Below are positions 16,910 to 50,079 of a stretch of 64,000 nucleotides of DNA, piece after piece (position 1 is the first letter of the stretch; the number at the start of each line of letters is the position of its first letter). The translations under genes and the position numbers were made by a program. The stretch comes from Pontederia crassipes. Its lineage: Eukaryota > Streptophyta > Magnoliopsida > Commelinales > Pontederiaceae. The notes beneath the pieces are model-generated. The model worked only from the letters and a program-made list of their open reading frames with translations, was not told the DNA's origin and ran no database searches. The stretch lies in the NCBI GenBank assembly GCA_030549335.1, contig CM060198.1, forward strand, positions 62,289,378 to 62,353,377, written 5' to 3'.

Positions 16910-16912
<3 letters not shown>

Positions 16913-17245
16913 CACCCATCCGGGTGGCGCCGTGAAACGACACGTTCTTCATCGTCAACTTTTGAACGACGGTTGAGACACAACTGCGGGCGTAAGTCAA
17001 GATCGCGGCCGTCCATGTAAACTTGATAATTGAGATGAAAATGCCAAAAAATTAAAACACAACACTCAAAAAATGAAATCGCGAGCTCTTCGTTCGAATG
17101 TCGCCCGATGTCTAGGACATGATCTGAGACGAGAGACGACGATGCCCTGTCCGCCGGAGCATAATCGACGCCTAGAGATAGATCAGGAGTTTGTTGGCGG
17201 TGAGCCCTTCGATCTCTTTGTCCTTTGCTTTTTTTATCGCTTTCG
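16910..17245 (+). repeat. Left terminal inverted repeat of MULE-1
   Basis: It starts TAACACCCATCCGGGTGG and pairs with 22215-22568 in reverse orientation. The outer 330 or so bases are clearly homologous, with scattered substitutions and small gaps, showing that the element is old. Confidence 0.8.
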
Positions 17246-17441
17246 CTTTGAGATTTTAGGTATGGTTGTGTGGCATGGATGTTTGCATGCAGCGCCATGA
17301 AACGCCCTAGATATCGACAACGGTGAGCCCTTCGATCTCTTTGTCCTTTGTTTTTTTATCGCTTTCGCTTTGAGATTTTAGGTATGGCTGTGTGGCATGG
17401 ATGTTCGCATGCAGCGTCGTGAAACACCCTAGACATCGACA
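17198..17441 (+). repeat. Subterminal tandem duplication, about 122-bp unit
   Basis: The block beginning GGTGAGCCCTTCGATCTC and ending in CCCTAGA-TATCGACAA occurs twice in a row with few differences. Related degenerate units form the array at the opposite end of the same element (21770-22330). Confidence 0.85.
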
Positions 17442-17855
17442 ATGCATATGCCTAGACAACGACATTCTGGACACTAGTGATTTGGGGTTTCGTGGTGCGC
17501 AATCGTCTCTTTTTTTGTGATTAATGGTGTTTTCATTCATGATTTGGGAGTTCATTTTCTCGTTTCATAGTCGACTTATTTTTTGTGATTTCACATTTTG
17601 TTTTCATGGACGCCTTAGATGATGACTGCACTGATGCTTAGACGATGACATTTGTGGACACCTTTCAGTACACATTTGTGTCCTCTTTATTGTGAGTCAC
17701 CTAACTAAACTTTGTATTATGATTACCGGTAGTTATTATCAACTTTATTTACAAATTCATGTGATAATTGATGCTTGTTTTGTGATTCACAATTTTCTCC
17801 TTTCACACTTTAAAGTTGATAATAACTATGATTTCACACTTTGTGATCCTTCATA

Positions 17856-19252
17856 CACTACTAGAATCAGCCCAAAAATTATCGGTAACGTAATTACCGA
17901 CGATTTTTCAGTCGAAATTGATCCGTCGGAAAAACGCTCGTCGCAAATCGATTTGCGACGGTCAAAAAACAATTCAACGAAAATATCGACAGTTCTAACC
18001 GTCGGAAAAGTTCCGACGGTTCCAACCGTCGAAAGTTTCCGACGGTTGCAACCATCGAAAAAGGCCAGCGGTTCCAACCGCTGAAAGTTTTCGACGGTCG
18101 CAACTGTCGAAACTTTTGATGGTCATCGCAACCGTCGATCTTTCGGCGGTCGCAACCATCACAAAGAATTTTTTAAAAATAAAAAAATTAGCGGCCGGAT
18201 CAGGCCGCGGCCAAATCCGGCCGCTGGGGGCCGGATCCAAACGCCTGCGACTGGATCCGGCCGCCCGCGGGCTGACGGCCGGATCCAAACGCCCGCGATC
18301 GGATCCGTCCGCTTGGCGTCCGGAGAGAAAGAGAGAGAGAGAGACGCCGGCGAAGAGAGAGAGACGCCGGCGGGAGAGGGTCGCCAGCGGCCGACGCTTC
18401 ACGTCCGGCCAGAGGCTCGCCGGCCGAGAGAGGGAGAGGGAGAGAGAGAGGAGGGAGAGAGAGGAGATGAGAGTATTATATATATATGTGGAAAAATGGG
18501 AAAAAGCGGAAAAACGAAAAAAAAGTGAGATAACGAAATTTTAATTACCGATGGCTCTGGCCGTCGGAAAAGTAAATATTAATTATTTTTAAAGTTACTG
18601 ATGGTTATGACCGTCGAAAAAATATTTAGTTATATTTAGTTATATATAATATTTTTTTTATTTTACTGATGGTTTGAACAGTCGGTAATTTTTACCGACG
18701 GACGAAATCGTTGGTAATTGTGATGGTTTAGATCATCGCTAATTATATTAATAAAATATCCATCATATGATATTATTATATATTTACCGACGATTACGAC
18801 CGTCGAAAATTGCGGCGGATTTTGCGACGGATGGATATCCGTCGAAAATATTGACGTTCCTAATCGTCGAAAAATTAAATAATAATATAAAAAATTACAT
18901 AATTTAGTTTTTTATTTCCGATGGTCGTAACCATCGAAAAATCCATTGGAAAATTTTAATAATAATATAACAAATTACATAATTTATTTTTTCATTTTCA
19001 ACGGTCGCGATCGTCGGAAAATCCGTCGAAAATTGCGACGGATCGATATCCGTCGAAAATATCGACATTCCTAATCGTCGAAAAATAAAATAATAATATA
19101 GTAAAGTACATAATTTATTATTTTCATTTCCGACGGTCGTAACCATCGAAAAATCCGTAAAAAATAAAACCATCGAAAAATCCATCGCAAATTGCGACGA
19201 ATTTCTATCCGTCAGAAATTGCCCGTCGGAAAATGGCAATTTTCTTGTAGTG
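17856..19252. mobile_element. Non-autonomous CACTA (EnSpm-type) element nested in MULE-1
   Basis: The left end is CACTACTAGAA and the right end TTCTTGTAGTG, flanked by the 3-bp target duplication ATA at 17853-17855 and 19253-19255. The interior is packed with copies of short inverted motifs such as CCGACGGT and ACCGTCGAAA, the usual CACTA subterminal repeats. A GC-rich core lies at 18190-18440. At 1397 bp with no transposase frame, it must depend on another element. The frames inside are repeat artefacts. Confidence 0.93.
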
Positions 19253-19469
19253 ATATTCCATTGTGTGTCTCAACGTTAGTAAGACATTTAAGTTAGATAT
19301 TATGGAAAATTATTGTGTGTCCGAAGAGGATAGGTATATGGAATTTCCTTCTTTAAATCGATAATGTTTGTGTCATATGCATTTCATTAATAGATTATTC
19401 TTATAACAATTGTGAAAATATTAATCTCATGCTACTGTCATGTCTATTCATGCGGATTCTAACTCAATA

Positions 19470-19651
19470 CAACCATCTCAATTTAGTATACGTGACCCGA
19501 CTCGCGTCAAATCAAAAGGTAGACCAAAAAACATGGGGAGAATTAAATCTGGTGTTGTGATTATTATGTCACAAAAAACAGGTTAAAAAAAGAAGTTGTC
19601 GCATTATGTGGGAAGAATGGTCATGACAAAAGAAATTGTCCTATATCAAAG
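19470..19651 (+). pseudogene. 3' remnant of a FAR1-type MULE transposase (MULE-1)
   Basis: Translation gives IRDPTRVKSKGRPKN and then, after frame changes, LCGKNGHDKRNCPISK. This matches the C-terminal tail of the transposase in MULE-2, which has IRDPLRVKSKGRPKN and the CX2CX4HX4C zinc knuckle. Here the first knuckle Cys is out of frame and stops intervene. The upstream transposase body is missing; only unreadable sequence, with the CACTA insertion, lies between it and the left TIR. It would have been transcribed from the left end. Confidence 0.75.
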
Positions 19652-20202
19652 GTAAAAAATTATCTACATTAATTGTCATATTTTTTTGTGCTTTGTTCAT
19701 TTGGCTTTTTACAAACTATAGGGCCACCAGAAAGCATGAAAGATGGCTGGAGTGTGAGGATTAACTTTTTGGCATCTACATGTTAGGTATGCGGTCTCAT
19801 TTCTCATTGTTATTTGACTAAATGTTGGCTCATATTTTCTCATTCTGTCTCGTATTACTCATTTAGCTCTTTCTAGTACTACCATCTTGTACTCATAACA
19901 TGTGTATTTAATGATGTTTGTGTTCTCTTTGTGCATATGCATGGTATTATATTCTCAAGCACAATGATCATTAACTAGTTGCTTGGCCTTTTTATGCAGG
20001 CATGCTGTAGGAAAATAAGGTCTTACAAGCCTTGAGTTGAAAGCATCAACTTTCTAGAAAGGCTTCTGTTGCAAATCTTTTTCATTGTGAATCATTTATG
20101 AAACAACATATCAGATGGATTGTATCCGCAGCCGATGATTGTTATAATCATTTCCATGGATTTTTCAATTTATGGACTGTATCCTGCCCTACATTTTGAG
20201 TT

Positions 20203-20340
20203 TATTGTGATATTGAACAATGTTCCATGATGGTGTACACTGTGGATGTTATAAATTTGTGAAATGAGTTTATTGTGATATTGAACAATGTTCCATTATG
20301 GTGTACTCTATGGACAATTTGTGTATGTTATATAAGTTTT
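20203..20340. repeat. Short imperfect tandem duplication, about 69-bp unit
   Basis: The phrase TTTATTGTGATATTGAACAA followed by TGTTCCAT(G/T)ATGGTGTAC occurs twice in succession between the transposase remnant and the LRR fragment. Confidence 0.75.
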
Positions 20341-20500
20341 CGATAGCGATTTAAAATGTTTTCTTCCTCCATTGATAATTTGATACACTTTTTAACTCAT
20401 TTGGTATAACTCAACGTAATACCCAAATACTCCACCATGCAGTTGGACATGCATTGTTTGTAATACTGGTGGTCATCATGCAGTTCTGAAGATCAGCTTG

Positions 20501-20912
20501 TCCAGCATTCCATTGCATACCACTATCCCCAGTTGTATTGGCCAGTTCAAATCTTTGCAAAATTTAACACTATAACGACAACTTGTTTGGACAAGTTCTA
20601 GAGACACTATGGGTTTTACCAGGACTTCTGCATTTGGAACTACCCAAGAATTCACTTTCGGGCTCTGTATTTCCTGAGATTAGTGTTTTGAAAAGTCTCC
20701 TCAGTCTGGACCTTTCTTACAATAGCTTCATTGGAGATCTTAATGGCATTGGTAGGTTGACAAATTTAAGAACTCTTACTCTAGGACAAAATGGTTTCAC
20801 ATGAAGTCTCCCCAAAGAAATCGGCAATATGAAACAACTGCAATTTTTTTCAGTCCGCCATTGCAAGTTGTCTGGGATAGTACCAAATGAGATCTCAAAT
20901 CTCATTGAATAA
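20501..20912 (+). pseudogene. Captured leucine-rich-repeat receptor gene fragment inside MULE-1
   Basis: Reading on the plus strand gives consecutive plant extracellular-type LRR units: TIPSCIGQFKSLQNLTL, LPGLLHLELPKNSLSGSV, LKSLLSLDLSYNSFIG and LTNLRTLTLGQNGFT. After a stop come SLPKEIGNMKQLQ and KLSGIVPNEISNL. The frame is broken by TAA near 20573, TGA after NGFT and a shift near 20850. There is no signal peptide, transmembrane segment or kinase. Its place between the two MULE genes suggests acquisition by the element, as in Pack-MULEs. The donor is presumably an LRR receptor kinase or receptor-like protein gene elsewhere in the genome. Confidence 0.8.
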
Positions 20913-21277
20913 AAGTTACTTTGGTACACTTTTTATGTTGAGAAAATTGGGTAGATCTTCTGATAGATTGATGACTATTTACTTTGATTAGAATATGCTC
21001 TCAAGTCAAGTCATCAGATATCTACGCCATCACAAAACATTGGAGAACAAGTTTAGCATATTGCACAATGAGAGTGTAGTGATAAATATGAAGCATCATC
21101 AACAAATTTATAATTGATAATTTATATGTCTGAGATATCAATTTAACACAACTACAACTAGCACAATCACAATAACAAGAAGTACAATCACAACTATCAC
21201 AAGTAACAGAATCCTAAGATATATCAACTTGACACAATTAGCACAATCACAATAACAACAAGTACAATAATCAATTT

Positions 21278-21641
21278 TCACATAAGATTGAGTCCTCCAT
21301 TCCTCGCACTCCTTGCAGCTTTAACTCTGGCCACATTATGAGATCTGACTTCAGATTCATCAAGCCTATGTAATAAATCATTTATCACTTCCTTAGGTCG
21401 ATCTCCGAGTTCTGAATCCAACTATTTGAAGTAATCGCATGCCCCAAGTTGCTAAAAGAAAGAATGCAATAGAATTAGACTATTGATGCAAATAAAAGTT
21501 GAATGGAGCTAAACGTTTTAAACATGTATCAAAGCTCACCCCATAATGTCGACATCCATAAAATCTCTTACCGAGATTTCTTTCGGTCCAAGAAGTTTTG
21601 ATCACAGCTTCTTGTTGATAATAACATTTAGGAAAAGTCAT
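21278..21641 (-). pseudogene. GRF-type zinc-finger accessory gene of MULE-1, broken
   Basis: Two exons on the minus strand, 21641-21540 and 21451-21278, are separated by an 88-bp intron with GTGAGC donor and TTTTAG acceptor in phase 0. Exon 1 gives KTSWTERNLGKRFYGC, the hallmark of a GRF zinc finger; exon 2 gives ACDYFK, then a stop where Trp is expected, then PKEVINDLLHRLD. Exon 1 is exactly 34 codons, as in the MULE-2 copy, with 22 of 34 residues identical by eye, and the intron sits at the same place. The second Cys of the finger has become Tyr and the Trp codon has become TAG, so this copy is dead. The reading is convergent with the transposase remnant. Confidence 0.78.
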
Positions 21642-21769
21642 GTCCTAAGACAATTCGGCAACATCAGCAAAGTTAAGAAAAAGTCATGAGATCAATGAAA
21701 GCAAAAAAATGAATGAGAATGAAACTACCAAAACATAATAATTGGCAATGAAATCACATAGACGCCGAA

Positions 21770-22330
21770 GAGTGAGTTGGAGTAGTAGCGCGCTCACACT
21801 GTTGAAGCGATCGAATGACTCACCGCTATAGCAGATTCCGATGTCGATGACGCTCCAGCTAGGGCGACGAACTATGATAGAAATATGCAGAATCACAAAA
21901 GTAAAAGGAATCCTAAAACTAGACATATAGGATCGTCAGCTAGGGCAATCGACGTTGAGAACACGATAAAAAATGAAGAAAGCGATAAAAATAACGAAGA
22001 AAAAAGCATTCGAAGGACTCATCGCTCTAGCAGAATCCGGATCTGTCACCTAGGGCACTCGACGATGATGATGCTCCGGCGGACAGGTCATTTCTCTCAT
22101 CTTAGATGCGGCAAACACGAAAGCGATAAAAAAACAAAGAACAAAGAGATCGAATGACTAGGCGCTCTGGCATACTCCGGAACACTCACCTAGGGCACTC
22201 CACGTCTCAGACGTGTCAAACGCGAAAGCGATAAAAAATGAAGGACAAAGAGATCGAAGGACTCACCGCTCCGGCAAACTCCGGATCTGACTCCTAGGGC
22301 ACTGGACGTCGATTACGCTCCGACGGACAG
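21770..22330 (-). repeat. Degenerate subterminal tandem array of MULE-1
   Basis: Several units of roughly 110-130 bp share GGTGAGT-CTTCGATCTCTT, TTTTTATCGCTTTCG and GCCCTAGGTGACAGATCCGG when read on the minus strand. They lie upstream of the GRF gene and inside or next to the right TIR. Confidence 0.7.
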
Positions 22331-22567
22331 GGCATCGTCGTCTCTCATCTCATATCGTGCCCTAGACATCGAGCAACATTCGAACGAAGGGTTCGCGATT
22401 TCATTTTTTGGACGCTGTGTTTTCATTTTTTGGCGTTTTCATCTCAACCGTCAAGTTTACATGGATGGGCGCGATCTTGACTTACGCCCACAGTTGTGTC
22501 TCAACCGTCGATAAAAAATCGACGGTGAAGAACGCAGGCGTTTCACGGCGCCGCACGGATGGGTGTT

Positions 22568-22568
<1 letters not shown>
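22215..22568 (-). repeat. Right terminal inverted repeat of MULE-1
   Basis: Read on the minus strand it begins TAACACCCATCCGTGCGG and follows the left arm closely for over 300 bases. It is followed outside by (CA)n and (TA)n. Confidence 0.8.
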
Positions 22569-43118: not shown

Positions 43119-43747
43119 GGCGATCGCCGGAGGAGGGAGGTGGAGGGAGAGACGAGGCGAGGCTAGGCGAGGCGGAGGAGGGAAAAGGTAGGGTTTTGAA
43201 GAGGGGAAAATAGAGAGGGAAAAAAATAAATAAACGGCGGAGAATAAAAAAGACCCTTCTTTTTGCCCTTTTCTTACATAGTCACGATAACTAATGCCAC
43301 TGCTGGGGGGGTACGTTTTCGTAACTTACGCAGCGTCCGCCCTGCGCCGATGGATCGATTTAGGACTCGTTTTTGTGGCGGAGGATGCGCCGAAGCGCCG
43401 CAAGGGAAGAATCCAAGTGAGATTTAACGTACATGCACATAAAGCGAACGCCAAACGCGCGACCGATGTGGCGTTCGCATCCGCGTGACGAGACTCTGCT
43501 CCGCTTGCTCGGGCTTTGGCGGGCTAGCGGCCGACTTCTAGTGGTCAAGCCCATTTGGGACTTGGTGGTAGGTCGAATGGTCTTCCCACAAGTGGGCCTC
43601 CATTGGGCTATCGACGAGCCATAAAGATAGAGAGATAAATTTTTAACAAGAAAATAACATTTTTAAAAGATAACTGTACGGAAATCTTTAAGAAATAAAT
43701 TTATGATAATCCTTTCAAGAAAAAAATTGCATTCTTGAATTTTGGAA
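43119..43747. other. E2F upstream region
   Basis: The first 150 or so bases are GC-rich and GGA-rich on the plus strand and probably hold the E2F leader and core promoter. I did not find a clear TTTCCCGC-type E2F self-regulation site. Nothing else is recognisable up to the MULE-2 target duplication at 43739-43747. Confidence 0.4.
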
Positions 43748-44576
43748 GGAATTAATGGGTGTCCACCTCTTTTAAAGGACCTGGACATCCCTGCCTATTC
43801 CGGATATCGTCCGATATGAATTTGACGGTTCAGATCGAGACGGATCAGTCTAGGCATATTTCTTATGATATCTGAATGGTTCGATCGGCTCATAAAGATA
43901 AGCGCCGGTTCGCACACAGATATGCACCCATTTCACCTTTCTCTCTCCACCCATTTCGACCGGAGGACCTAGGGCACATGCATTTCGCCCATTTCACCTT
44001 CTCTCTCCTCCGCGACGGCCGCACCTCCGAGCGATGCCCGATGACGCCCTCGGCCGACCTCCTCCGCGATGCCTCGGCCGACCTTCGAGCGAGACCCGGT
44101 GACCTCCTCCGCGACGCCTCGGCCGACCTCCTCCGCTCCGCCTCTGCCGACCTTCGAGCGACGCCCGATGATGCCCCTCTCGATCGACCTCCGCCGCCTC
44201 GGCCAACCTCCTCTGCTCCGCCTCGGCCGACCTTCAAACGATGGCTGACCTCCTCCGCGACGGCCGACCTTCGAGCGACGGCCGTTGACGCCCCTCTCGA
44301 CCGACTTTCGCCGTGGCCAACCTCCTCCGCAACGGCCGCACCCTCTCGACCGACCTCCTCCGTGACGGTCGACCTTCGAGCGATGCCCGTTGACGCCCCT
44401 CTCGACCGACCTCCTCTGCCTCGGCCGACCTCCTCCGCCTCGGTCGACCTTCGAGCAACGGCTGACCTCCTCCGCGGAGGCCGACCTTCAAGCGACGACC
44501 GACCTCCTCCGCCTCGGCCGACCTTCGAGCGACGGCGGACCTCCTCCGCCTCGGTCGATCTCCTCCGCAAGAAGCC
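43748..44576 (+). repeat. Left TIR of MULE-2 with inner tandem array
   Basis: The outer 300 bases match 49770-50070 in reverse complement, for example GACATCCCTGCCTATT and TATCGTCCGAT. From about 44010 the arm becomes an irregular array of GACCTCCTCCGC, CTCGGCCGACC and TTCGAGCGACG blocks. These give long low-complexity frames on both strands that should not be annotated as genes. Confidence 0.88.
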
Positions 44577-44684
44577 ATAGGTTTGAGAGTAAATTGTATT
44601 GGACTTGTAGAGTAAACTGTATTGGACCTCATCTGGAATGTAGATGTTATGTCTAATTTGATACCCTAAATTCTAATTGTAGCC

Positions 44685-45048
44685 ATGACACATCCTAGAT
44701 GTTATTGTCAAGAAAAAGCAATGATGAAGACCTCTTGGACCACACGTAATCCGGGTAGAAGATTCTATGGTTGTCCATTTTACGGAGTGAGCATCGAAGA
44801 CTTCTGATGGATGAATTAATTATTGTGTAATGTTTACTAATTTCAAGATACTCCTTTTTATATTGTAGCAAAGAAGAGCATGCCAGTACTTTATGTGGAT
44901 GGATCCTCCGTTTGATGAAAGGTCTACCCAAGTGATAAATGGATTATTGTGCAAACTTGATCGGAATGTAGTTCGTAATCTGGCCGAAGATGAAGACATT
45001 GCACAAGCCGATGGAATGTCATTATTTTGGAAAGTCATTTTTTATTAG
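44685..45048 (+). CDS. GRF-type zinc-finger accessory protein of MULE-2, 2 exons, 93 aa
   Basis: Exon 1 is 44685-44786 (34 codons) and exon 2 is 44869-45048 (60 codons with TAG). The 82-base intron has a GTGAGC donor and a TTGTAG acceptor in phase 0. The protein reads CYC near the start, SWTTRNPGRRFYGCPFYG, then ACQYFMWMDPPF, the C-x-C, NPGRRFYGC, C-x-YF-x-W pattern of GRF zinc fingers. The rest, STQVINGLLCKLDRNVVRNL, is helical-looking with no known domain. GRF fingers bind nucleic acid in other proteins; the role in a transposon is not known to me. The frame is fully open, unlike the neighbouring transposase, and the gene lies just inside the left TIR, which probably supplies its promoter. 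A homologous broken copy sits in MULE-1. Confidence 0.78.
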
Positions 45049-46567
45049 TATTCTTGTAGCTATAATGTTTGTGTTTATGTGACACGATGGCCATATTAGT
45101 ATTCTTGTTTTGCAATTTGCTTTGTGTTTATGGACTTTCTAGCATATATCGAACCTAAACCCCTTGCATTTGGGGCGTCTGTTAGCATGTTATTTGCCTT
45201 GTGAATGTATCATTTGTGTAAGAACACTAATCGTTATGTGTGTACTATATTTTAAGTTGTTCTCATTATGACTGCATTAGTCTTTACGACTGCCTTAGTT
45301 CTCATTACTTGCGTCGAGAGTCAATATATTTTTTTCCAAGTCTTTGTGACTACATTAGTTCTCATTACCTGGTCACGTATAACGATCATCATGTCAATTC
45401 ACATACTCGCAGCAGTAACAACACCGCGGTATGTGCCTCCTACTCTGCCTCACAGACCGTATAAAGATCATCATGCCAAGTCTTTATGATTGGTTTGCAT
45501 GCTTGCTAAGTTACTGGATGTATGCTTACTGTTTAGACTTCGCGGGATTGCCTAGATGATGTTTAGAAGTCTTGCGAGGATAGAAATAGACATTTGAACT
45601 GTAGACACGACCGATTAAGAAGAACCATGAACAAATGAATCAGAGGTTTGAAGCATGACGTGCACGGTCATGGTACTAAAATGTGAGAGAAATCCTTCTT
45701 CAACATCAAGGGACATCAATTCTTTCACATACTTTAGTTTCATAGAGAATATCGGATTCAGATATGGTAAAAGTTCAGTTATTGAGAACGTGTAACAAGA
45801 TGTTCAACTTCCACTGAACAATTATTAAGAACGTGTATCAATATCAGGGGACATCAATTCTTTCACATACAAGCAATTATCAGACATTCGAGCAAGGCTA
45901 ATAACATGAATACTATTGAGAACGTGTAACAAGATGTTCAACTTCCAAACTAAACATATCTTTCAAAACAAGAACCAACACTGCATATCTTTCAAACTAA
46001 ACATAAAATCATCGATACATAGTTGGGGTCTTAAACAAGAACTCTATGATATATAGATGTCTACACGGTAAAATAACAAATCAGCCCCGGGAGTAGAGAT
46101 CTAGTATCCAACTAACAAGAGGTTCCTGCACGGTAAATGTTGAAAGTATTAGACACAAACTAAATTCACCAAACTAAAATATGCAATCAATAAAGAAATT
46201 TATAAACTTTAAGGACTCTTTAAAACAAAATCATATAGCAAATCTTTCCCTTTTACCTTCTTAAGAATGTCAAATTTAGAATCATTTGTTGTGCATTGTA
46301 ACGTTCCACAATTCCTGAAAAGCCAAAGCAAAAGTGCAAAACATCAATGAGAAATTATTAAAGAGAACATGCAAACCTATCCACGGTAAGTTGCTCAAGT
46401 TCGACACAAGAAGCATTGTAAAGTAAATTTTAATGATTGAACCTGACTTTTCATATTTCAATGTAGTTCTCCTTCATTTCCAGCATCCTATAAATAAAGT
46501 AAGACAAAGTATACATTAACATATCGACGAAAAGATAATATAACAATGATAAAAGAGATAAAATAAT
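45049..46567. other. Spacer between the two convergent MULE-2 genes
   Basis: No captured host gene is recognisable here, in contrast to MULE-1. A direct repeat of about 135-bp period lies at 45709-45949 (GGGACATCAATTCTTTCACA and GAGAACGTGTAACAAGATG each twice). A weaker repeat around TTAGTTCTCATTAC occurs at 45295-45370. Confidence 0.6.
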
Positions 46568-48829
46568 TTATACCTTCAACATTAGACACGTTCTCTTATC
46601 ATGTCCCTGCCTCCCACATTTTCCACAACTTCTTTTTTTACACTCATTATGCGACATAGAAATTTCAATTTCGGATTTAATCCTTCCAACATTTTTGGGC
46701 CTACCCTTAGACTTCACACGAAGTGGGTCGCGAATAATGAATTGTGAATCATTTAAGGCGATTGAAGTTGGTTGTCTCATATGATTTTCGGTTGTGCTTC
46801 CTCACTCACTACCATGAATTTGACTTGTGCTCGCATTATTGGCATCTGTAACTACATTTGCCATATGAAAAGTCCTCATCTTTGTTATCAAATCATCAAC
46901 AAGCGGTGCCCCGAATTGTAAATGTCTAGCTGAAACCAAACCCATCTCTTGTACTTTCCACAAATTACTCTGCCAAGTTAATTTCTGGACGAGTGTTATG
47001 CAGTCACTATAAGAGGATGTGTTCTTATAAATGGCATGTGCATTCGCATATCTTGCATTTATTGTCCATCGATTAAGCACATATTCTTCAGGTAAGGATC
47101 TGACTTTTTTCTTATGCAGAATATTTAAAATATGGCAACAAAATATCCCTTCTTTCTCAAACTTTTTGCAAGAACATTTGACACTAATTGTTTCAAATTG
47201 ACTAAACTCAACAATATTTTTCCCATCATCATTAGTGCTCATATGAAAAATTGAGTATACAGATTTATTTGTGTCTTTATAAATCTTATTAGCATCTAAG
47301 CTGAAAGACTCTACATATTCTGATTGAAACTTAGAAAATGTGGCATGTGTGTAAATGTTACCTGCTTGGACCTCCAAAGGATTTTTAGAATGTACGCAAG
47401 TGAAGAGTTCATTGTTTGAAAGTCTTCTCGTTCTTTATGCCCACAATGAGTTTGGACAGTCCTATCATATTGTTCTACAAAATCTGAAAGCGAAGTGTTG
47501 GCATTGACATACCCATCAAAAAAAGCATTAATACTTTCTACCCTTTGTGTGGTTTGCATACCTGCAATGAACACATCTTCAAAGTATAATGAAACCCATT
47601 TGTTGTACATTACCTCTAACCAATACCCACATTTAATTTGAAACTTTTGCTTCAAATAGAGTCAACCCTCTTTAAATTCATCTACATTCGATGATCCATA
47701 AAGCTAACTATTGTACTCTTCTTTAAATGTCGGAATTAAATATAAATCCTGCATATGTGTCATTGATTCTTAGCAATATGCCATGTACAAAAATACATGC
47801 TTTGTATGCGGGTAAACCTTGCGTATAGCATTGCCCATAGCGATATCTTGATCTGTAATAATACATTTCGGATGTTTCTCATTCATGCATTCAGACCACT
47901 TCTCAAATAGCCACATGAATGTCTCCTTTGTCTCGTCTGCAAGCAAAGCACAACCAAATAAATATGACCTCCAATGATGATTTATTTTAGTGAAAGAAGC
48001 AAATGGTATTCTCAGATTATTTGTTCGATATGTTATATCGAATACTACCACATCGTCGAATGTCAAATAACTGTCCCTCGACCTCCCATCAGTCCAACAA
48101 AAATTTAGAACGGTGCCATCTCCATCGAACTCCCATCTATGAAAGAAACCCGGGTCAACACTTGCCTTACTTTGAAAAATAGAAATAATATTTAAGCATT
48201 CGATCGAAAAGTTTCCTTTTCTTCTACTTCTCAAATGGTCAATAGAATTTTGAGCTGTGATAAGTGGTTCGCCAGACATATTAAGCGCTCTAGCAATCTT
48301 GGATGGACCCATGCCGAAGTCATGCAAGCTAGCAATAGCTTCTTTGGATGTTGCACTTATTTCTTTATGCGACCTTAAATACTTTACTTTCGAAGGACTT
48401 GTAAGAGGATGACTGTGCTCTTCTTGAAATTTTCTTATCTCCCACTTTTCATCTTTTCTTAAATCAACATATAGATAGATGGGGCAATCATCCCCTGACT
48501 TCCTTACTTTGTGTAAATATTTTTTCAATTCCTTGCTTCAATCCCTTATGACCTTCTTTAGAACAAACAAAAGTTCTATTGATAAGATTTCCCGTAATCT
48601 TTGACTTGTGTGAATTTTGCCTTCTAATAAAAAAGTCAGCCAATTTAGTGTACATATTATAATACTTATACGCTTCCTCTTCTGTTTCAAATGTCATCCC
48701 AATGTTTGGTTTTGGTAGCTCATAGGATTTGACATATGCTGCATCATCTTTCTCATTATCTTCTTTGTTTAATCCCTCATTATACATCTCTTCCATATTA
48801 TCAAATCCAATGATACTCTCTGCATCCAT
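46568..48829 (-). pseudogene. FAR1/FRS-type MULE transposase, decayed
   Basis: Conceptual reading on the minus strand shows four parts in order. The FAR1 DNA-binding region has GMTFETEEEAYKYYNMY and NRTFVCSKEGHKG (about 48700-48540). The MULE transposase core has VVVFDITYRTN with its Asp near 48039, and IITDQDIAMGNAI. A SWIM zinc finger follows (CSC...FCCH, about 47176-47132), and last a CX2CX4HX4C zinc knuckle (46627-46586) behind RVKSKGRPKN. Breaks are a frameshift near 48520, another near 47785 with stops between 47770 and 47655, one near 47380, and a TGA at 46802-46804. It cannot make a full transposase. It starts just inside the right TIR and converges with the GRF gene. The family also gave rise to host FHY3/FAR1 factors, but the TIRs show that this copy is a transposon. 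Confidence 0.92.
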
Positions 48830-49308
48830 CTTACACGATAGAAAAAGTAACCTTTATCAGACAAACATGTATACATTCAATTATACAAAGAGCATAAAAA
48901 TAGCAGTGCGCAGAGTAATCAACATAATTCTTAGTTAGATTATAGAATATAAGAAATCATTGAATTAATTATTAGGTCGTCAATTAACTCATTATTGAAC
49001 GCTGACCACAGTAACAACAATAACAACAATGTATGTATGATGCCAGAAATTGTCATATCTAAAAGAAGAGATTGTATAAATGTTTATTTCGATACATAAC
49101 ATGAGTGATTATTCTACCTAATGTTAACAGCAATGTGTGTGTTTACTTTGACAAATAAGACGACTGCTTATTCTACATAATGTATGTGTTTCAACAAATA
49201 ACATGAGTGGTTATTCTACACAATGTTATTCGGCTCTCATGGTATAACTTATGTACCGGCGGCAAGCAGGGCTTCTCAGGCAGGGGAGGCAGCAGCGTCA
49301 CCTACGAC

Positions 49309-50070
49309 AACAGAGCGAGGATCTGCGATCGTCGCGGAGGAGGTCGGCCGAGGCGGAGGTTGGTCGAGAGGGGCGTCATCGAGTATTGCTCGATGGTTGG
49401 CCGAGGCAGAGGAGGTCGATCTAGGCGGAGGTCGATCGAGAGGGCCGTCACCGGACGTCGCTCGATGGTCGGCCGTCGTGAAGGAGGTCGATCGAGAGGG
49501 GCGTCGCTTGATGGTCGGCCGTCGCGGAGGAGGTCGATCGAGAGGGGCGTCGCTTGATGGTCGGCCGTCGCGGAGGAGGTCGGCCGAGGAGGAGGAGGTC
49601 GGTCCAGAGGGGCGTCACCGGGTCTCGCTTGAAGGTCGGCCGAGGCGTCACGGAGGAGGTCGACCGTCGCTCGAAGGTCGGCCGAGGCGTCACGGAGGAG
49701 GTCACCGGGTCTCGCTCAAATGTCGGTCGAGGCATCGCGGAGGAGGTCGGCCGAGGGCGTCACCGGGCGTCGCTCAGAGGTGCGGCCGTCACGAAGGAGA
49801 GAGAAGGCGAAATGGGCAAAATGCGTGTGCCCTAGGTCCTCCGATCGAAATGGGTGGAGAGAGAAGAGCGAAATGGGTGCATATCTGTGTGCGAACCGAC
49901 GCCCCTCTATGCGTGAACTGGCGCTTGAACCGATCGAACTGTTCAGATATCATAAGAAATATTCTTAGACCGGTCCGCCTCGATCTGGACCGTCGAATCT
50001 AGATCGGACGATATCCGAAATAGGCAGGGATGTCCAGCTCCTTTAAAGGAGGTGGACACCCATTAATTCC
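49309..50070 (-). repeat. Right TIR of MULE-2 with inner tandem array
   Basis: It is the inverted partner of 43748-44576. The outer part pairs closely; the inner part is an array of GCGGAGGAGGTCGGCCGAGG and GGCGTC(A/G)C blocks in a different order and number from the left arm, so the arrays have rearranged since insertion. Confidence 0.88.
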
Positions 50071-50079
50071 ATTTTGAAA

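Follow-up and report, generated by a model that had tools for sequence, protein, structure and literature searches.

A two-gene Mutator-like element with a FAR1-type transposase and a convergent GRF zinc-finger gene in Pontederia crassipes

The analyzed DNA, hereafter the window, is a stretch of 64,000 nucleotides from Pontederia crassipes (GCA_030549335.1, contig CM060198.1, positions 62,289,378 to 62,353,377 of the forward strand). Positions 43748..50070 of the window are a complete Mutator-like element (MULE), a decayed copy that is referred to here as MULE-2. Between its terminal inverted repeats (TIRs), a FAR1-type transposase gene and a short gene for a GRF zinc-finger protein face each other. 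The GRF gene seems to belong to the transposon itself and is not an isolated capture: it recurs with the transposase in dozens of copies, with the same genes and layout found in a second element of the window (MULE-1, 16910..22568) and across the host genome.

Pairing of the GRF gene with the transposase

A preliminary description of this DNA had placed a transposase reading inward from one TIR and an intron-containing GRF gene reading inward from the other, and the TIRs, target-site duplication (TSD), domains, and exons of MULE-2 agree with it. The TIRs are about 700 bp long, with 599 of 688 aligned positions identical between left and right, and directly outside both lies a 9-bp TSD with one change (ATTTTGGAA / ATTTTGAAA). 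Long TIRs with a TSD of 8–11 bp are those of a MULE, as is the MULE domain of the transposase (PF10551, 88.3 bits, cut-off 27.6). In the flanks of two relatives (L031 and L032), the TSD likewise matched at 8 of 9 positions. The features of MULE-2 are listed below in window coordinates.

43739..43747, no strand: TSD, left copy (ATTTTGGAA; 8/9 match with 50071..50079)
43748..44446, plus: left TIR, with GC-rich subterminal repeats
44685..44786, plus: GRF exon 1 (34 codons), first half of the GRF zinc finger
44787..44868, plus: predicted GRF intron, 82 nt (GTGAGC...TTGTAG), position and phase as in relatives
44869..45048, plus: GRF exon 2, second half of the finger, helix, and linker; frame shifted after FWKV, protein ends at 93 amino acids (aa)
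45028..45082, plus: counterpart of the hydrophobic C-terminal tail found in relatives, not in frame in MULE-2 (coordinates counted by hand)
46568..46801, minus: transposase C-terminal piece, CCHC-type knuckle C-x2-C-x4-H-x4-C (read by eye)
46802..47434, minus: transposase piece, SWIM zinc finger (PF04434, E 8e-5)
47311..47661, minus: transposase middle piece, without Pfam match, with homologous pieces in relatives
47770..48537, minus: transposase piece, MULE DDE/RNaseH-like domain (PF10551, E 4.9e-25)
48488..48853, minus: transposase N-terminal piece, FAR1 DNA-binding domain (PF03101, E 9.3e-9)
49326..50070, minus: right TIR, with GC-rich subterminal repeats
50071..50079, no strand: TSD, right copy (ATTTTGAAA)

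The transposase runs on the minus strand from 48853 to 46568 in five pieces, and its FAR1, MULE, and SWIM domains were identified by Pfam. The CCHC knuckle reached 9.7 bits in Pfam (cut-off 27), and a repeat Pfam search at 0.1 gave no match to it. The several breaks ascribed to this gene were borne out as four in-frame stops (three between 47770 and 47661, one at 46802) and two frame changes. The 93-aa GRF protein matched PF06839 (E 3e-9, 37.3 bits, cut-off 25.9), and relatives scored 26.5 (query with one wrong letter), 35.9, and 37.0 bits; among Pfam families, GRF alone exceeded the cut-off in the second-gene protein. The view that MULE-2 has a MuDR-like layout, with a second gene from a different protein family, is upheld by these convergent genes inside the TIRs and the GRF match.

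The GRF frame had been described as fully open. Its 93 codons are open, but relative to relatives of 105 aa the frame shifts near the end, after FWKV, and the C-terminal tail is lost. The relatives' frame ends at 105 aa both in open copies (L011, L031, L032, and L033) and in copies with earlier stops (L029 and L034). The significance given to an open GRF frame beside a broken transposase did not hold: at the transposase's rate of about six breaks per 760 or so codons, about 0.7 break would be expected in the 93 codons of GRF, and the GRF copy has one. The open frame is no evidence, because this break density leaves 93 codons unbroken about half the time.

The host assembly (1.13 Gb) was searched for both genes. 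Each genome search scores about 150 places, and the pair counts are therefore minimum values. The first transposase query, a single piece, yielded 3,442 first-look candidates, of which the best 149 were scored; the GRF protein gave 254 matches, 150 of them listed, from 2,698 first-look candidates. At least 36 transposase-GRF pairs lay within 15 kb in these first searches, all on opposite strands. A second transposase query and a second GRF query brought the listed places to 161 transposases and 186 GRF genes, among which at least 53 GRF genes were located 1–5 kb downstream of a transposase (median 3.2 kb), all convergent; 0.05 such pairs were expected by chance, with a maximum of 1 in 500 shuffles. 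When Pfam families were added (299 transposase and 229 GRF places), the listed GRF genes 1–5 kb downstream were convergent in 65/65 cases, and 70 of the 72 listed pairs within 15 kb on either side were on opposite strands. The two same-strand exceptions were the doubled GRF of locus L018 and one pair 11 kb apart. Chance co-location of the two genes is ruled out by the shuffles and the 65 convergent pairs.

A listed transposase was present within 15 kb for 67 of the 186 GRF genes. From the 112 GRF genes without a listed transposase and outside the elements already read, eight were drawn at random. Six of the eight face transposase pieces at a distance of up to 4.6 kb, although the piece at L039 has only 24 codons; no convergent transposase piece was found within 4.6 kb of the other two (L040 and L042). 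Together with the 65 convergent pairs, this draw supports the expectation that GRF genes of the host genome are largely inside such elements.

Twenty transposase-centered loci (odd ranks 1–39 of the 149) were read individually, and the closest relatives are therefore over-represented among them. Convergent GRF genes were found in 12 of the 20: L009 (MULE-2 itself), L011, L012, L014, L015, L018, L019, L021, L022, L023, L025, and L026. Inverted repeats flank the transposase in 19 loci (all except L013), and the GRF gene lies between or within the TIRs in 12/12 GRF-bearing loci. GRF-bearing and GRF-less loci interleave in the transposase tree, in which several inner branches have low support.

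Some of these loci differ in structure. In L018:1145-5559, the TIRs are enlarged to include the GRF gene, which gives two inverted GRF copies around the transposase, with arms about 95% alike. A second, divergent GRF class (NNNPERRFWGC type, ending KIMYLLLGMIISFVLVKMNFL) occupies the convergent place in L019:5396-5846 and L023:5423-5749; by eye it has a hydrophobic C-terminus too. These two genes were included in the 12 of 20 and excluded from the alignment, selection ratios, and tail statistics given below. The transposase of L013 (G000:C25:2165927-2175877) is closely related and has a frame of 702 aa without stops; no TIRs or GRF gene were found in the 10 kb read. This locus may be either an intact copy that has lost its ends or a FAR1-like gene that has been domesticated.

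A search for the TIR family of MULE-2 gave 36 hits, 22 of which were paired by eye into 11 elements. That other copies of this family carry the GRF gene was confirmed in 10 of the 11 TIR pairs (window, L011, L012, and L029–L035; L035 lacks exon 1 and was counted by exon 2 only, and the splice model of L034 is doubtful). The eleventh pair, about 0.95 kb long, is without GRF. Four of the 14 single TIR hits have a listed GRF gene within 2 kb. The transposase is kept in 6 of the 10 GRF-bearing pairs and gone in L031–L034 (L032 retains about 35 aa). Among these four derivatives, L031, L032, and L033 have a GRF frame that stays open for 105 aa, with a finger cysteine missing in L033. Four TIR-like hits on one strand at a spacing of about 30 kb (G000:C14:12631422-12721792) suggest a tandem segmental array.

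Searching the window with the MULE-2 proteins revealed the genes of MULE-1. It agrees with MULE-2 in layout, in the 102-nt length of GRF exon 1, and in the position and donor site (GTGAGC) of the intron; its features are listed below.

16910..17367, plus: left TIR
19464..19654, plus: transposase C-terminus relic
21224..21451, minus: GRF relic exon 2, with in-frame stops and hydrophobic tail (end counted by hand)
21540..21641, minus: GRF relic exon 1 (PF06839, E 3.8e-4, under the family cut-off)
22118..22568, minus: right TIR

Between MULE-1 and MULE-2, the GRF genes differ with a synonymous divergence (dS) of 1.15 and a nonsynonymous-to-synonymous ratio (dN/dS) of 0.30; the uncorrected ratio (pN/pS) is 0.47 (bootstrap 0.32–0.69). 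The transposase C-termini give a dS of 1.55 and a dN/dS of 0.13, with the codons at two frame shifts excluded. The layout, intron position, and divergence common to the two elements suggest that the two genes have probably travelled together for a long time. TIR similarity between the elements was looked for and none was found: the outer 250 bp of the MULE-2 TIR, compared with the left arm of MULE-1 in one orientation, scored 17 (shuffled mean 17.1).

MULE-1 is a composite, namely a two-gene MULE relic with a captured leucine-rich repeat (LRR) gene fragment (20568..20804, PF12799, E 4.5e-7). A CACTA-like element is nested in it (17856..19252, ends CACTACTAGAA / TTCTTGTAGTG) and is full of short repeated CCGACGGT-type motifs. 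The element is placed between TA and CA/TA repeats, which recalls the TA-targeting MuTAnT family.

Selection, splicing, and C-terminal tail of the GRF protein

The comparison of selection on both genes proposed in the preliminary description gave purifying selection on each: over 12 shared loci, pN/pS was 0.35 for GRF and 0.28 for the transposase. Distances between GRF genes correlate with those between transposases (Mantel r 0.38, p 0.004). The pooled GRF ratio, which uses all pairs (non-independent, decayed copies included), was 0.38 for the finger and helix. Judged by these ratios, the GRF gene is under purifying selection.

The position and phase of the GRF intron are kept among relatives. 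At locus L044 (C15, 697 onward), an intronless GRF copy matches the MULE-1 GRF at 241 of 294 positions, and the exon junction is gap-free; therefore, a spliced transcript of a MULE-1-type GRF gene was once reverse-transcribed. In L044:1-1000, a long open frame precedes this retrocopy and is in frame with it; the open frame resembles a Ty3/Gypsy polyprotein by eye and gave no match in Pfam. It is possible that L044 is a MULE transcript captured by a retrotransposon.

Eight open GRF relatives are 101–111 aa long. In them, one GRF zinc ribbon is followed by a short helix or linker, and about 19 hydrophobic residues form the C-terminal tail. Of the 18 GRF frames aligned, 15 (eight open and seven with earlier stops read as X) have a 19-residue window with a hydropathy of 2.58–3.44 that ends 0–1 residue from the C-terminus. 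This terminal window was not present in L009 (the window copy) or L030, and reached only 2.01 in L012. Among eight subfamily representatives, with these three loci excluded from the codon-position counts, the tails share 32% amino-acid identity, and codon positions 1, 2, and 3 differ at 0.53, 0.15, and 0.50, respectively. Since position 2, which largely sets hydrophobicity, is the least variable, it is the hydrophobicity of the tail that is kept and not its sequence. The pattern points to a C-terminus selected as a membrane-type, tail-anchor-like segment.

Among solved structures, the only relatives above noise were GRF chains of NEIL3, human or mouse-type (7jl5, E 4.8e-7; 7omk, E 1.8e-5). The GRF fingers of NEIL3 and APE2 belong to the same zinc ribbon family as the MULE protein (PF06839). 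Those fingers are parts of large repair enzymes, with two fingers in NEIL3, whereas the MULE protein has a single finger in about 105 aa and a hydrophobic tail. The GRF finger of APE2 binds single-stranded or forked DNA. For NEIL3, binding of its GRF fingers to both single-stranded and forked DNA is reported (PMC9266487).

Comparison with known systems

Both mudrA and mudrB of maize MuDR are read inward from the TIRs. MULE-2 and its relatives, with two convergent genes inside TIRs, resemble MuDR in having a transposase, an oppositely transcribed second gene, and long TIRs (PMC6446971, PMC9168764). The function of mudrB is described as unknown, and the gene is apparently required for integration (PMC6446971; PMC9168764). 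It is reported only in Zea (PMC3276141) and, in the accessible text, is not named a GRF protein; the two second genes were compared by description.

The transposase has FAR1 at its N-terminus, which Table 1 of PMC6446971 gives to the Jittery group and not to the plant MUDR group. In that group (group 36 of Dupeyron et al. 2019, including Jittery and AutoMuTAnT), FAR1 at the N-terminus is combined with SWIM or CCHC at the C-terminus (PMC6446971). MULE-2 shows this order (FAR1, E 9.3e-9; SWIM, E 8e-5), and its placement is by domain order alone. TIRs of 39–292 bp are given for the Jittery group (PMC6446971 Table 1). AutoMuTAnT, which is Jittery-like, sits in TA repeats (PMC4486113), as MULE-1 lies between TA/CA repeats. 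The group is listed with one open reading frame (ORF), with no second gene or GRF mentioned in the accessible parts; here, a second gene was found in 12 of the 20 loci, and the other 8 fit one ORF.

Abermu type II elements of grasses have an ORF1 transposase and an opposite ORFR between ORF1 and the 3' TIR (PMC9168764). ORFR is absent in some species and has a Ka/Ks of 0.39–0.56 (PMC9168764). Its function is unclear and it is dissimilar between distant plants (PMC9168764), in contrast to the one recognizable family with a conserved intron described here. The Abermu transposase groups beside MuDR and far from Jittery, and neither GRF nor FAR1 is mentioned in the accessible text (PMC9168764). 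In the VANDAL/Hiun elements of Arabidopsis (vanA, vanB, and vanC), accessory genes also stand beside a MULE transposase, and one has an anti-silencing function; GRF is not named for them in the accessible parts (PMC6446971).

In the open-access literature (Repbase and closed journals not included), no paper joining GRF fingers to MULEs was found, and a match that combined the two terms concerned human DNA repair; this negative does not extend to several unexamined papers, by title mostly transcriptome or QTL studies, that mention a GRF zinc finger, transposons, and plants. Two-gene MULEs with a second gene on the opposite strand are known, and GRF as that second gene appears to be new in the literature covered.

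Possible role of the GRF gene and its significance

The reading that we prefer, with a probability of about 0.55, is that the GRF protein is a tail-anchored, nucleic-acid-binding accessory factor that acts in trans in the transposition cycle, and that MULE-2 comes from a two-gene FAR1-type lineage. The ribbon would bind single-stranded or forked DNA, as described for the GRF of NEIL3 (PMC9266487), and the tail would anchor the GRF protein to a membrane, which may be continuous with the nuclear envelope. The protein would most likely act after cleavage, in the handling of excised ends or in integration. Its function would correspond to that of maize MURB, although the two proteins would not share an ancestor. 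Both the deletion derivatives with GRF only and the copies without GRF fit a factor shared in trans.

Several observations weigh against this. GRF was not detected in 8 of the 20 transposase loci (L010, L013, L016, L017, L020, L024, L027, and L028), and a profile search of these eight gave no convincing GRF match; the GRF gene is therefore optional, or not needed in cis. Related GC-rich repeats occupy the GRF place in L010, L017, and L020, and in L024 and L027. Of the 43 GRF places found only by the Pfam family, 40 are without a listed transposase within 15 kb and 3 pair with one, and a listed convergent GRF was present at 12 of 138 further MULE transposase places; this low pairing does not show absence, because both sets are the best-scored places only. 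The Mantel correlation is modest, and the pooled pN/pS of the C-terminal part of GRF is 0.78. The T-rich tail DNA encodes fairly hydrophobic sequence in its other reading frames too (up to 2.37), an objection that the codon-position test answers only in part. Matches of the single fingers to NEIL3 are weak (i-E 0.025–0.92). Finally, a protein held in a membrane is an unusual participant in a reaction that takes place in the nucleus.

A weak same-strand GRF match in L016 (E 0.001; bits 6.7 and 3.5) lay outside the TIRs and was not counted. Several of the GC-rich repeats of L010, L017, L020, L024, and L027 contain open frames rich in arginine or proline, which probably reflect composition alone.

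The strongest of the alternatives, although clearly less probable than help in the transposition cycle, is an anti-silencing role: much as VANC does, the GRF protein would protect its own family from silencing by the host, perhaps through binding to the repeat-rich TIRs or their transcripts. There is precedent in vanC for an extra MULE gene with an anti-silencing function (PMC6446971). In addition, the GRF gene adjoins long subterminal repeats, and L031–L034 lost the transposase and kept GRF, open to 105 aa in three. Such derivatives number only four, however, and deletion endpoints are arbitrary. To our knowledge, no membrane tail is known for VANC. The absence of GRF from 8 of the 20 loci would also suit a passenger, a host gene that an ancestral element picked up on one occasion in the style of Pack-MULEs and that has since been carried without function for the element. 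MULEs do capture genes, as the LRR fragment of MULE-1 (PF12799, E 4.5e-7) illustrates. We consider this origin unlikely: the purifying selection (dN/dS 0.30 in the window pair; pN/pS 0.35–0.38 over finger and helix) would be unexpected, as would the conserved intron, the convergence of 65/65 listed downstream pairs, and the selected hydrophobicity of the tail. A Pack-MULE holds a host-gene fragment without selection, and the GRF gene is a whole ORF with a conserved intron and a pN/pS of 0.35–0.38.

Equally improbable in our estimate is self-regulation, in which the tail keeps GRF off chromatin, so that the protein sequesters transposase or element nucleic acid and dampens transposition, with GRF-less copies escaping. 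A gene that is optional in cis (8 of 20 loci without it), is kept in four transposase-less derivatives, and encodes a membrane-type tail would be consistent with this, and the GRF fingers of NEIL3 inhibit their enzyme (PMC9266487); selection for self-restraint at the level of the element is usually weak. A role in the transposition cycle thus ranks above anti-silencing, and anti-silencing above both a functionless passenger and self-regulation.

A broader picture is more doubtful, taken as a whole: a large plant lineage of FAR1-type MULEs may have a membrane-anchored zinc-ribbon helper through which transposition, or else escape from silencing, is organized at the endoplasmic reticulum or the nuclear envelope, and many short host genes annotated as 'GRF-type zinc finger' may be such second genes. 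We know of no DNA transposon with a membrane-anchored helper.

Jittery is reported to excise, and new insertions of it were not seen (PMC3276141). A conserved second gene beside a transposase of Jittery-like domain order makes it possible to test directly which functions besides the transposase a MULE requires, a question open since mudrB. The pairing also calls for caution with small GRF zinc-finger genes, which may belong to transposons; two queries gave 2,698 and 2,609 first-look GRF candidates in the host genome (exons counted apart; candidates, not genes). If the proposed role is true, the selected hydrophobic tail of such a transposon helper would connect DNA transposition with membranes, which would be unexpected.

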